DNA from: Actinomycetota bacterium
GTDB taxonomy: Bacteria; Actinomycetota; Acidimicrobiia; Acidimicrobiales; CADCSY01
Direction of reading: 5' to 3'
DNA length: 32,473 nucleotides
NCBI GenBank assembly: GCA_019348495.1
Contig: JAHWJI010000020.1
Location: 1-32,473, forward strand
In this document: one piece after another, positions 15,632-22,731 of the stretch
Layout: every line of letters begins with the position of its first letter
Position numbering within the stretch: position 1 is the stretch's first letter
Translations under genes and position numbers: made by a program
The notes under the pieces: generated by a model
Told to the model about the DNA's origin: nothing
Seen by the model: only the letters and a program-made list of their open reading frames with translations
The model's database searches: none

Positions 15632-17306
15632 GTTGCTGGGGGTCGAGTCGATGGCGGCCGACGTGGTGGTGCCCCTCCATGACCACCCCCTGCCCCGGGT
15701 GCTGGAGATGCCTGCGGCCGTCGACATCTACGACACGACGCTGCGCGACGGCAGCCAGCAGGAGGGGCTGTCGCTCACCGTGGACGACAAGCTCCGCGTG
15801 GCCGAGCAGCTCGACCACCTGGGGGTGGCCTACATCGAGGGAGGTTGGCCGGGGGCCAACCCCAAGGACGAGGAGTTCTTCGCCCGGGCGCCGAACGAGC
15901 TGCACCTGGTCACCTCCACCCTGGTGGCCTTCGGCTCCACCCGCCGCCCCGGGGCCAAGGCCGACACCGACGAGACGCTGCGCCAGCTGCTCGACGCCGG
16001 CACCAGCGCCGTGTGCATCGTGGCCAAGGCCTGGGACTACCACGTCACCCAGGCGTTGCGCACCGACCTCGACGAGGCCGTGCGCATGGCCGCCGACTCG
16101 GTCGAGTACCTCCACCGGGCCGGGCTGCGCGTGTTCCTCGACGCCGAGCACTTCTTCGACGGCTACCGGGCCAACCCCGAGTTCAGCCTGGCCGTGCTGC
16201 GGGCGGCCGAGGAGGCCGGGGCCGAGGCGCTGGTGCTGTGCGACACCAACGGCGGGACGCTGCCCCACGAGGTGGAGCGGGTGCTGGCCGAGGTCATCCC
16301 CGCCACCACGGCCGGCATCGGCGTGCACTTCCACAACGACGGCGGGTGCGGGGTGGCCAACACCCTCGCGGCCGTGCGCCTCGGCGCCACCCAGGTGCAG
16401 GGCTGCATCAACGGCTACGGCGAGCGCACCGGCAACGCCGACCTGTGCGCGGCGGTACCCAACCTGGCCCTCAAGATGGGGGTGCGCACCATCCCCGACG
16501 AGCGACTCGAGCGCCTGACCCCGGTCGCCCACCACATCGCCGAGCTGGTCAACATCGCCCCCGACCCCAAGCAGCCCTACGTGGGCGCATCGGCTTTCGC
16601 CCACAAGGCAGGCCTGCACACCAGCGCCATCGCCCGGGCGCCCGATGCCTACGAGCACGTGCCGCCCGACACCGTGGGCAACGGCACCCGCTTCGTGGTC
16701 AGCGAGCTGTCGGGGCGCTCGACACTGGCGCTCAAGGCGACCGAGCTCGGCCTCGACATGGACGCGCCAGCGCTGACCGACGTCCTGCAGCGCCTCAAGC
16801 ACCTGGAGCACCAGGGCTACCACTTCGAGGTGGCCGACGGTTCCCTGGAGCTGTTGATGCGCGACGCGGGGGGATGGTCACAACCCTTCTTCACGCTGGA
16901 GTCGTTCCGGGTCTCGGTGGAACAGCGTGACCAGGGCGAGATCACCACCGAGGCCACGGTGAAGATCCACGTCGACGGCGAGCGCGTCATCCGCACGGCC
17001 GAGGGCAACGGGCCGGTGCACGCCCTTGACGCCGCCATCCGTGAGGCCATCGGGTCGAAGTACCCGGCACTGACCGACCTGCACCTGACCGACTACAAGG
17101 TACGGGTCCTCGACACCGACAAGGGCACCGCCGCGGTCACCAGGGTGCTGCTCGACACCACCGACGGCGACCGCACCTGGTCGACCATCGGCGTGTCGGC
17201 CAACATCATCGAGGCCTCCTGGCAGGCGCTGAGCGACTCCATCGTCTACGGCCTCCTGCACTCCGGTCCCACCCACGTCGTCGGCGACCAGGGGCAGGAC
17301 ACCTAG
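15621..17306 (+). CDS. cimA: (R)-citramalate synthase
   Basis: A 561-residue member of the HMGL/2-isopropylmalate synthase superfamily, citramalate branch. The N-terminal TIM barrel opens with IYDTTLRDGSQQEG, followed by GGWPGANPKDEEFF and the metal-binding HFHNDGGCGVANTLAAV. NGYGERTGNADLCAAVPNL follows the barrel. Residues about 430-555 form the LeuA-type allosteric dimer domain (VEQRDQGEITTEATVKIHVDGE onward). It condenses pyruvate and acetyl-CoA to citramalate, the threonine-independent route to isoleucine. The start is ATG 15621, inside the end of ilvE. Confidence 0.9.
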   Translation: MSAELLGVESMAADVVVPLHDHPLPRVLEMPAAVDIYDTTLRDGSQQEGLSLTVDDKLRVAEQLDHLGVAYIEGGWPGANPKDEEFFARAPNELHLVTSTLVAFGSTRRPGAKADTDETLRQLLDAGTSAVCIVAKAWDYHVTQALRTDLDEAVRMAADSVEYLHRAGLRVFLDAEHFFDGYRANPEFSLAVLRAAEEAGAEALVLCDTNGGTLPHEVERVLAEVIPATTAGIGVHFHNDGGCGVANTLAAVRLGATQVQGCINGYGERTGNADLCAAVPNLALKMGVRTIPDERLERLTPVAHHIAELVNIAPDPKQPYVGASAFAHKAGLHTSAIARAPDAYEHVPPDTVGNGTRFVVSELSGRSTLALKATELGLDMDAPALTDVLQRLKHLEHQGYHFEVADGSLELLMRDAGGWSQPFFTLESFRVSVEQRDQGEITTEATVKIHVDGERVIRTAEGNGPVHALDAAIREAIGSKYPALTDLHLTDYKVRVLDTDKGTAAVTRVLLDTTDGDRTWSTIGVSANIIEASWQALSDSIVYGLLHSGPTHVVGDQGQDT

Positions 17307-17308
17307 GC

Positions 17309-17827
17309 GTGGCGGCACCCGAGTACGTCCCCACCAATCCGGCCCAACAGCCCCGACGGGGCCTGCCCCTGCCCCCGGCCCCGTCCTGGCGGGCCGACCG
17401 TCCCGCCGACCTCGGTCCGGCCCAGCCGGTGGGGGCCGCACTCGGCCACCCCGGCCCCGACCAGGGCTACGCCCTCAAGCTGGCCCGCCACTTCGAGCAG
17501 CGCCTGGTGTTGGCCGAGGGCGAGCACGCCGACGACGCCGTGCTCGGCTGCCTCGGCGTGGCCCTGCGCCGGGCGTCGATCTTCGGGCGGGCGCCGGTGA
17601 TCCACGACCTCGAGATGGCGTTCACCCTCTGGGGCTTCCTCGGCGATGCGCCGGCTGAGCTGGTCGAGCTCCGCCGGCGCCGCTTCCAGGCCCTGGAGCA
17701 CCACTACGAGGAGCAGCGGGCCATCGCCGAACAGGTGCCCGAAGCCACCCTGCGCCTCACCCCGGCCCAGCTCGAGGCTCGTTGGCCGGGCGAGTGGCGG
17801 GAGCTGCTGGGGGTCGCTGCGGCCTGA
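17309..17827 (+). CDS. Conserved-looking protein of unknown function, last gene of the leuB operon
   Basis: A 172-residue soluble protein starting at GTG 17309, two bases after the cimA stop. The first 50 residues are Pro-rich and likely disordered. The rest is helical and Arg/Glu-rich (HFEQRLVLAEGEHADDAVLGCLGVALRRASIFGRAPVIHDLEMAF, then WGFLGDAPAELVELRRRRFQALEHHYEEQR). No motif is recognised. Its place in the operon suggests a link with amino acid metabolism, but this is only positional. It ends convergent with the formate dehydrogenase operon, 7 bases apart. Confidence 0.75.
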   Translation: MAAPEYVPTNPAQQPRRGLPLPPAPSWRADRPADLGPAQPVGAALGHPGPDQGYALKLARHFEQRLVLAEGEHADDAVLGCLGVALRRASIFGRAPVIHDLEMAFTLWGFLGDAPAELVELRRRRFQALEHHYEEQRAIAEQVPEATLRLTPAQLEARWPGEWRELLGVAAA

Positions 17828-17839
17828 GCCCGGCTCAGG
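17823..17839. terminator. Bidirectional hairpin between convergent genes
   Basis: CCTGAGC (17823-17829) and GCTCAGG (17833-17839) pair perfectly around CCG. The hairpin contains the stop codons of both convergent genes. There is no T-run on either side. It may act on both transcripts. Confidence 0.4.
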
Positions 17840-18719
17840 GCCCCCGGGCATCCCGTCGCTCCCGTTGGGGGCCGACGGTGTAGCGGGGGTCTCGGGCCGA
17901 GGCGAAGCCGGCCCGGAACACGGCCCAGCGCTGGCAGATCCCGCCGGCGACCACCAAGGCGGCGCCGATGGCATCGGTCGGTCGGTGAGGGTCGACCACG
18001 GCGAGCAGCGCTACCCCGGCGGCCGAGCACGCGGTGGCGGCCCGGGACCAGCGGCGGACGTCGCAGGATCGGTGGTAGGGATCGGCCAGCGCACCGAGAC
18101 GGTGCTTCATCACCTCGGCGGCAACCAGCTCGCCGGTGGCACCGGCCACGGCCAGGCGCCGGGCCGACGTCGCCTCGGCCGCCGGCGTCAACAGCGTCGC
18201 CATCGCCCCGGCGCTGGCGGCGGCGCTGCCGGCGAACACGAAGGGCAACTCGTGGCGGGCCTCGTGCCACACCGGCACCGACGAGTCGGCCAACAGGACC
18301 GCGGTGTAGGTGCACATGGGTAGGCCCAGTCCTGCGGCCGCGCCCTCGGCCAGGCGCTGGAGCCGGGGCAGGCGCCCCAGTGCCCCGAGCACGCCCGAGC
18401 CCACGGCGGCGGGGAGGAAGGCGGTGAGCAGCCAGCTCCCCATGCTCATGGCCGAGGTGGGCTTGCACACCCGCAGCATGTTGTAGAAGCGCCGGGGCCG
18501 CCCCAGGTCCATGACCAACAGGACCGGGCTGACGACGGCGCCGGCAGCTCCGACCAGGCGGGCGCTGTCGGCCAGCCCACGGCGGCCGGTCACCCGGGCG
18601 CCGAAGGCCAGCCCGGCCGAGGCCCCGGCCAGCCCACCGGTGAACAGGTACCAGGGCACCTCCCAGGTCCACTCCGGCTCCTTGAGCACCGGCCGCCCGT
18701 AGTAGCTCCTCGGGGTCAT
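17835..18719 (-). CDS. nrfD: NrfD/PsrC-type membrane subunit of formate dehydrogenase
   Basis: A 294-residue multi-spanning protein with about eight hydrophobic segments. It begins MTPRSYYGRPVLKEPEWTWE and continues VPWYLFTGGLAGASAGLAF, a typical NrfD opening. It also has the family stretch VSPVLLVMDLGRPRRFYNMLR. NrfD subunits anchor molybdopterin oxidoreductases and pass electrons to or from the quinone pool without haem. ATG 18719 overlaps the stop of the iron-sulfur subunit (ATGA). This replaces the cytochrome b subunit used by the E. coli FdnGHI enzyme. Confidence 0.9.
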   Translation of the reverse strand: MTPRSYYGRPVLKEPEWTWEVPWYLFTGGLAGASAGLAFGARVTGRRGLADSARLVGAAGAVVSPVLLVMDLGRPRRFYNMLRVCKPTSAMSMGSWLLTAFLPAAVGSGVLGALGRLPRLQRLAEGAAAGLGLPMCTYTAVLLADSSVPVWHEARHELPFVFAGSAAASAGAMATLLTPAAEATSARRLAVAGATGELVAAEVMKHRLGALADPYHRSCDVRRWSRAATACSAAGVALLAVVDPHRPTDAIGAALVVAGGICQRWAVFRAGFASARDPRYTVGPQRERRDARGP

Positions 18720-19549
18720 CGCCGGCGCTCGCCCACCAGCGAGCCGGCCAGCACCGCAGCCAGGGCGCCGGCGGCGGCCCCTGCCATCGCCCACATGCGG
18801 GCCAGGTGCCGGCTGGGCGTCACGGGGTCGGGGGGTAGCCGGTAGACCTCGGGGTCGTCGAGGAGCAGGAACAGCGCACCGGTGCCGCCCACGCCGTCGT
18901 CGGGGTCCTCGCCGTAGAGCTGGGCCCGGGTCTCGCCTGAGGCCACCACCTCGGCCAGGCGCTCGGCGGCCTGCGCCCGAAGTTCCTCCAGGGGGCCGAA
19001 CTGGATGGAGTCGGTGGGGCACGCCTGGGCGCAGGCCGGCTCCTTGGCCCCTCTCATGCGGTCGTAGCACATGGTGCACTTCCAGGCGCCGCCGTCGGCC
19101 TCTCGGCGCTCGATGACCCCGAAGGGGCAGGCGGTGACGCAGTAGCCGCAACCGTTGCACACGTCGTCTTGGACCACGATGGTGGCGAACTCGGTGGTGA
19201 ACAGCGCGCCCGTCGGGCACACCTCGAGACAGGCCGGCGACGAGCAGTGCTTGCACACGTCGGAGCTCATGAGCCAGCGGAAGTCGCCCGAGGCGGAGCC
19301 GGTGTCGGCGGTGGTGGAGCCCTGCTCGACGAAGGCCACGTGACGCCAGGCGTTCGCACCCAGGGCGCCGGTGTTGTCGTAGGAGTTGGCGGTGAAGCCC
19401 AACGGGTTGTCGGGGACGTCGTTCCACTCCTTGCACGCCACCTCGCAGGCCTTGCACCCGATGCAGATGCTGGAGTCGGTGAAGAACCCGAAGCGGACCC
19501 CTTCGGTACCCGGTGCGGGCCCGCCCTCGGGCCCGAGCAGGCCGCTCAC
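18716..19549 (-). CDS. Formate dehydrogenase iron-sulfur subunit (four [4Fe-4S] clusters)
   Basis: A 277-residue electron-transfer subunit. Four cysteine groups are seen: CIGCKACEVAC, CKHCSSPACLEVC, CNGCGYCVTAC and CTMCYDRMRG...CAQAC. A single membrane helix (AMAGAAAGALAAVLAGSLVG) ends the protein, as in FdnH-type subunits. The start is GTG 19549, which overlaps the stop of the catalytic gene; a version beginning further upstream would run deep into that gene. It relays electrons from the molybdopterin subunit to the NrfD membrane subunit. Confidence 0.93.
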   Translation of the reverse strand: MSGLLGPEGGPAPGTEGVRFGFFTDSSICIGCKACEVACKEWNDVPDNPLGFTANSYDNTGALGANAWRHVAFVEQGSTTADTGSASGDFRWLMSSDVCKHCSSPACLEVCPTGALFTTEFATIVVQDDVCNGCGYCVTACPFGVIERREADGGAWKCTMCYDRMRGAKEPACAQACPTDSIQFGPLEELRAQAAERLAEVVASGETRAQLYGEDPDDGVGGTGALFLLLDDPEVYRLPPDPVTPSRHLARMWAMAGAAAGALAAVLAGSLVGERRR

Positions 19550-22500
19550 GGGCCCGGGCCCGGACGGTAGGTCTCGACGAAGGTGCGCAGTGCCGGCCCC
19601 CGGGGACGGCGTCCGGCCACGATGTCGCACGTGGCCGCCTTGACCTCCTGGATGGCCACGTTGGGGTCGACCACGATGGGAAACAGGTCGTTGGCGGCGT
19701 CGCCCGGGGCCAGGCCGGCGTGGCCCCAGTGATAGGGCAGACCCACCTGGAGGAGGCGCCGGCCCGCCACCTCCAGTGCTGGCATCCGCTCGGTCACCAG
19801 CACCCTCGCCTCGATGGCGCTGCGGGCGGTGACGACGGTGGCCCAGCCGCCCTGCTCCAGGCCCCGCAGAGCGGCCAGCTCGGGGTGGACCTCCACGAAC
19901 ATCTCCCGGGCCAGCTGCGACAGTCGCTGCTGGAAGCGGCTCATGCCCCCGGCGGTGTGGTGCTCGGCGATGCGGTAGGTGGTGGCGACGAAGGGGTAGT
20001 CGCGGTGATCGCCGGAGCCAGCCGAGGGGTTGGCGGGGTGGGGGAAGCGACGTCGGGCGGGGTTGGCCTGCTCACGGTAGAGACGATTGGCCACGGGCGA
20101 CTCGTGGGGTTCGTAGTGGGTGGGCAGGGGGCCGTCGGCCAGCCCGTCGGGGGCGTAGAGCCAGCCCTTGCCGTCGGCCTGCATGATGAACGGGTCGCAG
20201 CCCCCGAGTGCGGCGGGGCCTCGGGCGTGGGCGTCGGGCTGGTGGTCGGGAGCCAGGTCGGCGACGAAGTCGGGCCGGTCGTCGCCGGTCCAGTGGCCCG
20301 AGGCCGCGTCCCACCAGACGTAGCGCTTGCGCTCCGACCACGGTGACCCGTCGGGAGCGGCCGAGGCCCGGTTGTAGAGGATCCGGCGGTTGTCGGGCCA
20401 GGCCCAGCCCCAGCCGGGAGCCACCCCGGACCGCTCCTGACCGGGCCGGCGCCGGGCGGTCTGGTTCACCCCGCCGGCGTAGCACCCGGCGTAGATCCAA
20501 CAGCCGCAACGGGTGCTCCCGTCGTCGGCCAGGCGACCGTAGCCGTCGAGGGCCTGGCCCTCGGCGTCCCATCCGTTGATCTCGGCCAGCACGGCGCTGG
20601 CGCTGGGCTCCTCGTGGGGACCGTGGGTGGGGTAGTCCCAGGTGAGGTCCAGCACAGCTCGGTCCCGGTGCTCCCCCGAGGCGGCGAGCTTGTCTCGGAT
20701 CCTGCGCCCGAGGTGGTAGCAGAACCACAGGTCGGAGCGGCAGTCACCGGCGGGCTCCACCGCCTTGGTGTGCCACTGCAGCAGGCGCTCGGTGTTGGTG
20801 AAGCTTCCGTCCTTCTCGGTGTGGGCGGCGGCGGGCAGGAGGAACACCTCAGTGGCGATGTCCTCGGGGCCCAGCTCGCCAGACTCCGTCTCGGGACCGT
20901 CGCGCCAGAAGGTGGCGCTCTCGATCTCGCTCAGGTCACGTACCACCAGCCAGTCGAGCTGGGCCAGGGCTAGGCGGTGCAGGCGGGAGTTGGCCGATCC
21001 CACCGCCGGGTTCTCGCCGAACAGGAGGTAGCCCTCGACCTTGCCATCGAGCATGTCCAGGGCCGTGCGGTAGGCGCTGTGATCTCCGGTGAGGCGTGGG
21101 AGGTGGCCGTAGCAGTAGTCGTTCTCCGGCTGGGCCGCGTCGCCCCACCAGGCCTTGAGCAGACTCGTGATGTAGGCCCCGGTGTTCCCCCAGAACCCCT
21201 TGCTGGCGGTGCCGTAGGTGACGTAGTCAGCGAGCGTCGGGTGGGAGGTCGCCATGGGCATGGGCAGGTAGCCGGGGAGCAGGTCGTAGAGCGTGGGGAT
21301 GTCGGTTGAGCCCTGGATGCTGGCGTGGCCCCTCAGGGCCAGGATGCCCCCGCCCGGCCGACCGATGTTGCCCAGCAGCAGCTGGATGATGGAGGCGGTG
21401 CGGATGTACTGCACCCCGACGGTGTGTTGGGTCCAGCCCACGGAGTAGACGAAGGCCGAGGTGCGCTCCCGTCCTGAGTTGGCGCACAGCGCCTGGGCCA
21501 CCTCGAGGAACTGCTCCTCGGGCACACCGCACGACTCGGCCACGAACGCCGGCGTGTAGCGGGCGAAGTGGCGCTTGAGGATCTGGAAGACGCAGCGCGG
21601 GTGCTCGAGCGAGGGGTCGGTGCTGACGGCCCCGTGCTCGACGGCGGTGGGAGCGGACTGGAACGTCTGGCCCCCGGCTGGTCCCGGGCGTCCCGCCGAC
21701 GCCCGCACCGTGGGGCCCTCGTAGCGCCAGGAGGTGCGGTCGTAGGTGGCCGTGTCGGGGTCCCAACCGGAGAACAGCCCGTCGAGGTCCTGGGGCAGGC
21801 GCAGGTCCTCGGAGACCAGGTGGGAGGCGTTGGTGTAGGCCACCACGTAGTCACGCAGCTCTGAGCCGGTGGAGAGTATGTGGTTGACGATGCCGCCCAG
21901 GAAGGCGATGTCGCTGCCCGCCCGCAGGGGCACGTGGCGATCGACCAGGGCACTGGTGCGGGTGAAGCGGGGGTCGACGTGGAAGACCTTGGCCCCCTTC
22001 TGGCGGGCCTCGACGACCCACTGGAACGCCACTGGATGGCACTCGGCCATGTTGGAGCCCATGATGACGATGCAGTCGCTGTTGGCCAGGTCGCGGGGGA
22101 AGGTGGTGGCGCCGCCCCGTCCGAAGGAGGTCCCCAGACCGGGGACGGTGGCCGAGTGTCAAATGCGGGCCTGGTTCTCGATCTGCAGGGCGCCCAGGGC
22201 GGTGAAGAGCTTCTTGATCAGGTAGTTCTCCTCGTTGTCGCAGGCGGCGCCCCCGAGGGTCCCGAAGGCCAGCGTGCGATGCAGGGGCACGCCGTCTTCG
22301 TCGGTGTCCTGCCAGTGGGCGGCGCGCGAGGTGACGATGCGCTCGGCGATCATGTCCATGGCCTCGTCCAGGGGCAGGTCCTCCCAGTCGACGGCGTGGG
22401 GGCGGCGGTAGCGCACCGTCGTCACCCGGCCCGGGCCGGTGACCAGGTCCTTGGTGGAGGACCCCCGCGGACACAGGCGTCCCCGGGAGACGGGGCTGGC

Positions 22501-22731
22501 GGGGTCACCCTCGATGTGGAGGATCTCCTCTCCCTTTACGTAGATGCGCTGCGCGCACCCCACGGCGCAGAAGGGGCAGATGGAAGCCACGACCCGGTCG
22601 GCGTCCTCGGTACGGGGGTGCAGGCCCTCGGTGCGAGCGGAGCGGGCGGCGGCGCCCAGGGCCAGGTGGTCGCCGCCGGGGCGCAGTTGCCGGGTCACCG
22701 GCCACGACAGGATCGCCTCCCTCAGTCGCAT
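19546..22731 (-). CDS. fdnG: Formate dehydrogenase catalytic subunit, selenocysteine-containing
   Basis: One 1061-residue gene interrupted by an in-frame TGA (22161-22159) at residue 191, read as selenocysteine. The N-terminal [4Fe-4S] motif is ICPFCAVGC (Cys52, 55, 59) with Cys87 in RGRLCPRG. The TGA stands in QIENQARI-U-HSATVPGLG, where this family binds molybdenum/tungsten through Sec (or Cys). Both sides are in the same frame and continue without gap as family sequence (FGRGGATTFPRDLANSDCIVI, then MGSNMAECHP). The next 35 bases contain a SECIS-like hairpin. AAGGAGG precedes the ATG. No twin-arginine signal is visible, so the site probably faces the cytoplasm. It oxidises formate to CO2. 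Confidence 0.93.
22130..22161 (-). promoter_or_regulatory. SECIS-like hairpin and selenocysteine UGA codon
   Basis: On the coding (minus) strand the UGA at 22161-22159 is followed by 18 bases ending in GUCCCC, then loop GGUCU, then GGGGAC. This gives a 6-bp perfect stem (22146-22141 with 22135-22130). From memory, the E. coli fdhF SECIS has the same GGUCU apical loop at the same 18-base distance from its UGA. This supports SelB-directed insertion. selA, selB, selD and tRNA-Sec are not in the window. Confidence 0.85.

Follow-up and report, generated by a model that had tools for sequence, protein, structure and literature searches.

Among bacterial selenoproteins, the formate dehydrogenase (FDH) alpha subunit and SelD are the two that occur most widely (PMC1794560, PMC5029168), with FDH alpha in first place (PMC5029168). 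Three clusters encoding selenocysteine (Sec)-containing FDHs have been described in the actinobacterium Amycolatopsis chiangmaiensis DSM 45062, one of which (FDH1) comprises the genes for an FdhA protein of 1078 aa, FdhB, FdhC, a permease, SelA, and SelB (PMC7176365). In this strain, selenite nearly abolished the accumulation of formate and was needed for its full removal, and SelA, SelB, and SelD were all detected in the proteome (PMC7176365).

The locus described here lies in a stretch of 32,473 nucleotides (hereafter, the window) that forms contig C74 of a 161-contig, 2.21-Mb genome (98% complete, estimated contamination 1.5%). As in A. chiangmaiensis FDH1, a predicted Sec-containing FdhA is encoded together with FdhB and FdhC, but the selA and selB genes, found inside the FDH cluster in A. 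chiangmaiensis, are located here on another contig (C117). The fdhA gene heads an fdhABC operon in which each gene overlaps its neighbor by 4 bases. The features of the locus are as follows:

19546..22731, minus strand: fdhA, formate dehydrogenase alpha subunit of 1061 aa with predicted Sec at position 191 (read-through translation, NF041513, 1KQF match).
22159..22161, minus strand: TGA predicted to be read as Sec (U191) (TGA in nearly all close relatives; aligned with X of 1KQF chain A).
22130..22146, minus strand: predicted bacterial SECIS apical hairpin, GTCCCC/GGGGAC stem and GGTCT loop (sequence, third-position covariation, loss in Cys homologues).
18716..19549, minus strand: fdhB, 4Fe-4S electron-transfer subunit (Pfam Fer4_11 and Fer4_7; 4-base overlap with the end of fdhA).
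17835..18719, minus strand: fdhC-like gene encoding an NrfD-type membrane subunit (Pfam PF03916 NrfD, 51.5 bits, cutoff 25.8; 4-base overlap with fdhB).

The frame of fdhA opens on the minus strand with an ATG at 22731, reaches an in-frame TGA at 22161-22159, and then runs on in phase until the TGA at 19548-19546, where it stops. Under the standard code, the ORF 22731-22159 is closed by the first TGA after 190 aa, whereas reading through this codon yields a product of 1061 aa in which the recoded residue is U191, within the peptide NQARI-U-HSATVPGLGTSFGRGG. The two in-phase frames separated by a single TGA, the 18-nt distance, the GGTCT loop, and the 6-bp stem given in a preliminary description of this DNA proved exact to the base. 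The TGA had also been placed there at the catalytic position; in the alignment with 1KQF, U191 falls on X, the non-standard residue of that structure.

The read-through product matched the NCBIfam family NF041513 (formate_DH_Act) with 1803 bits (cutoff 1400) from residue 6 to residue 1056, in a single continuous match that spans the TGA, and TIGR01553 with 902 bits (cutoff 814). Its Pfam domains are PF04879, PF00384, and PF01568, and its best match in the PDB was 1KQF (E. coli FdnG, formate dehydrogenase N; E = 1.6e-205). It is thus a molybdopterin oxidoreductase with an N-terminal 4Fe-4S domain, a score above an FDH-family cutoff, and an in-frame UGA at the metal-ligand position, as expected for an FDH alpha subunit. 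With the NF041513 family it shares the full-length match as well as the TGA and hairpin present in nearly all members found, and no difference of substance was observed. The enzyme had been described earlier as being of the FdnG/FdhF type; the FdnG-like part of this assignment holds, narrowed to the actinobacterial NF041513 family with an NrfD-type membrane subunit, but the enzyme is not FdhF; the latter (FDH-H, 715 aa) is a far weaker match, shorter, and distinct. The homology with FdnG extends over nearly the whole length, and the two enzymes have in common the residue aligned with U191 and an Fe-S partner subunit. E. coli FdnG is exported and has a cytochrome b as its partner, whereas the membrane subunit here is of the NrfD type and no twin-arginine signal was visible at the N-terminus. 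The best NCBIfam match of FdhB was TIGR01582 (FDH-beta), at 182 bits, below the cutoff of 334.7. Between the NrfD-type gene and a convergent LeuA-like gene (17306-17835), no Pfam match was obtained with the ORFs examined on either strand.

Between the TGA and the loop GGTCT (22140-22136) lie 18 nt ending in GTCCCC; the arms GTCCCC (22146-22141) and GGGGAC (22135-22130) form a perfect 6-bp stem. The GGUCU loop and its distance of 18 nt from the UGA are what we take to be those of the E. coli fdhF SECIS, from which the fdhA hairpin differs in the sequence of its stem. From base-shuffled windows, 0.003 cases of a GGTCT loop on a perfect 6-bp stem 14-25 nt after a TGA would be expected, and the window has one; for TGA-N18-GGTCT irrespective of the stem, 0.8 chance occurrences would be expected in the window. 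The Gly codon of the loop is GGT, although GGC is four times more common (196 versus 48) in this window of 70% G+C. The fold of a 45-nt segment showed no extra stability relative to shuffled sequences (z = +1.45), the minimum-energy structure of an 81-nt context did not correspond to this hairpin, and a search of the window with Rfam gathering scores returned tRNAs only, with no SECIS match. It is through conservation and covariation, and not through folding energy, that the predicted element is convincing: as in bacterial SECIS elements, the stem-loop lies just 3' of the UGA, with identical offsets in relatives and covariation at third codon positions.

Relatives were drawn from a scan of genome contigs and from searches of related genomes, and the close ones are labelled Actinomycetota, Chloroflexi, Dormiibacterota, Myxococcales, Nitrospirae, Geomonas, and others. 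The codon equivalent to 191 is TGA in nearly all of them (about 90 or more, from many phyla), with the hairpin at identical spacing. The 92 relatives with TGA provided 84 distinct contexts of 45 nt for an analysis of covariation. At offsets 14-26, where the third bases of a GTN and a GGN codon, both synonymous positions, face each other, all contexts were paired (84/84), as C-G (59), G-C (16), U-A (5), or U-G (4). Column shuffles gave a mean of 54.6 paired contexts and none of 20,000 reached 84, a figure that ignores relatedness and serves as a guide rather than as an exact probability. In five loci (L051, L136, L137, L142, and L148), the loop-closing pair (17-23) is G-C instead of C-G. The loop was GGTCT in 68 contexts, AGTCT in eight, and AGTTT in six, so that RGTYT accounts for 82 of the 84. 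Since AGUCU or AGUUU is found in 14 of the 84 distinct hairpins, SelB of these bacteria might conceivably accept AGUYU as well as GGUCU loops, a suggestion that we regard as tentative.

Relatives with a sense codon other than Cys and no hairpin had been named in the preliminary description as evidence against Sec. The exceptions to TGA that we found, three members of the family, carry Cys and have lost both stem and loop, the corresponding segments being GTCTCG GGCCT GGGCAC in L087 (Nocardiopsis trehalosi), GTTGTC GGGCT GGGCAG in L130, and GTGGTC GGGCT GGGAAG in L131. Separately, two loci (L047 and L048) belong to another FDH-like subfamily (SCNRT-U-H, about 40% identical) with a TGA, GGTCT 18 nt downstream, and a different stem; similar one-TGA matches were seen in G017, G050, G037, and other genomes.

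The presence of SelA, SelB, SelD, and tRNA-Sec elsewhere in the genome had been predicted, and all four were found above curated cutoffs. For tRNA-Sec (gene selC), the hit on C149 scored 67.8 bits against a gathering threshold of 47, and ARAGORN assigned it the anticodon TCA. C117 carries selA next to selB (scores of 376 and 273 bits against cutoffs of 267.9 and 242.25, respectively), and selD was identified on C161 with 375 bits (cutoff 125). Three genomes of the same genus (G001-G003) also contain the TGA gene, tRNA-Sec, and SelA. Because contamination is low and tRNA-Sec and SelA occur in these sister genomes, the sel genes were assigned to the same organism as fdhA. The selD gene has an in-frame TGA of its own at residue 19, in the motif GAGUACK (L017:1477-2520 in the same genome), followed by a predicted hairpin of -24.3 kcal/mol over 45 nt, and SelD is thus a probable second selenoprotein of this genome. 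In three other genomes (G008, G011, and G057, carrying L023, L024, and L019, respectively), the TGA gene and SelA were found but no tRNA-Sec scored above the cutoff, even with laxer filters. These genomes are fragmented drafts of 240-430 contigs each, and since all three have SelA, an assembly gap is the likely cause, although their tRNA-Sec may instead be divergent. A second FDH alpha gene of the genome under study (L159, G000:C33:37800-39087) is 60% identical to fdhA over its first 100 residues, and its contig ends before the Sec codon.

The in-frame UGA of this FDH alpha gene is almost certainly recoded as Sec by means of the hairpin and the machinery encoded in the same genome, as judged from the sequence, and the sel genes, the conserved TGA and hairpin, and the hairpin-less Cys exceptions all support the Sec formate dehydrogenase proposed at the outset. 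The ordinary folding stability of the hairpin and the three draft genomes with no tRNA-Sec above the cutoff weigh on the other side. That two separate standard-code ORFs are called at fdhA, and that Cys homologues exist in the family, would also be expected if a Cys-type FDH had acquired the TGA by nonsense mutation or sequencing error, the gene being a pseudogene or mis-assembled. This reading, which the presence of the Sec machinery also contradicts, is highly improbable and was rejected, since about 90 or more relatives, in independent genomes of many phyla, have TGA at the same codon together with a covarying hairpin. It is just as improbable that UGA is a general sense codon (e.g., for Trp or Gly) and the hairpin a by-product of the conserved peptide VPGLGT. 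The hairpin does sit in the codons of this peptide, which alone explains part of its conservation, but not the covariation of third codon positions, and the three Cys homologues seen retain most of the protein context yet lack the stem. Moreover, UGA is also a normal stop, as both fdhA and selD terminate in TGA, and the tRNA-Trp found has the anticodon CCA, whereas the tRNA with TCA is tRNA-Sec. General recoding of UGA was rejected on the grounds of the TGA stops elsewhere and the third-position covariation.

A genuine Sec codon could, in addition, act as a selenium-sensing regulatory stop, a shortage of selenium leading to termination at 190 and to lower expression of fdhB and fdhC. These genes lie directly downstream with 4-base overlaps, and UGA recoding in E. 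coli is efficient only with sufficient selenium in the medium (PMC4513850). However, no specific support for a regulatory role was found here, and such an effect would come with every Sec codon located near the start of an operon, without a separate mechanism; we thus consider this role unlikely. Under the preferred reading, Sec decoding at fdhA, SelB carrying Sec-tRNA-Sec would recognize the GGUCU-loop hairpin 18 nt downstream of UGA codon 191, and Sec would be delivered at this codon instead of termination, as in known members. The product would be the catalytic alpha subunit of formate dehydrogenase, binding Mo/W-bisPGD and a 4Fe-4S cluster, with Sec191 expected, from known members, to ligate the metal. 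By the same analogy, the Fe-S clusters of FdhB would relay electrons to the NrfD-type membrane subunit, from which they would reach quinone; the putative function is to oxidize formate with the quinone pool as electron acceptor.

The annotation of the locus would accordingly change to one selenoenzyme, in place of the fragments of 190 aa and 838 aa produced by standard gene calling. Selenoproteins of this kind are well known in bacteria, and FdhA, here from an uncultured actinobacterial lineage, is an ordinary example that leaves existing knowledge of Sec decoding unchanged. For the source lineage, it implies that formate oxidation would depend on selenium.
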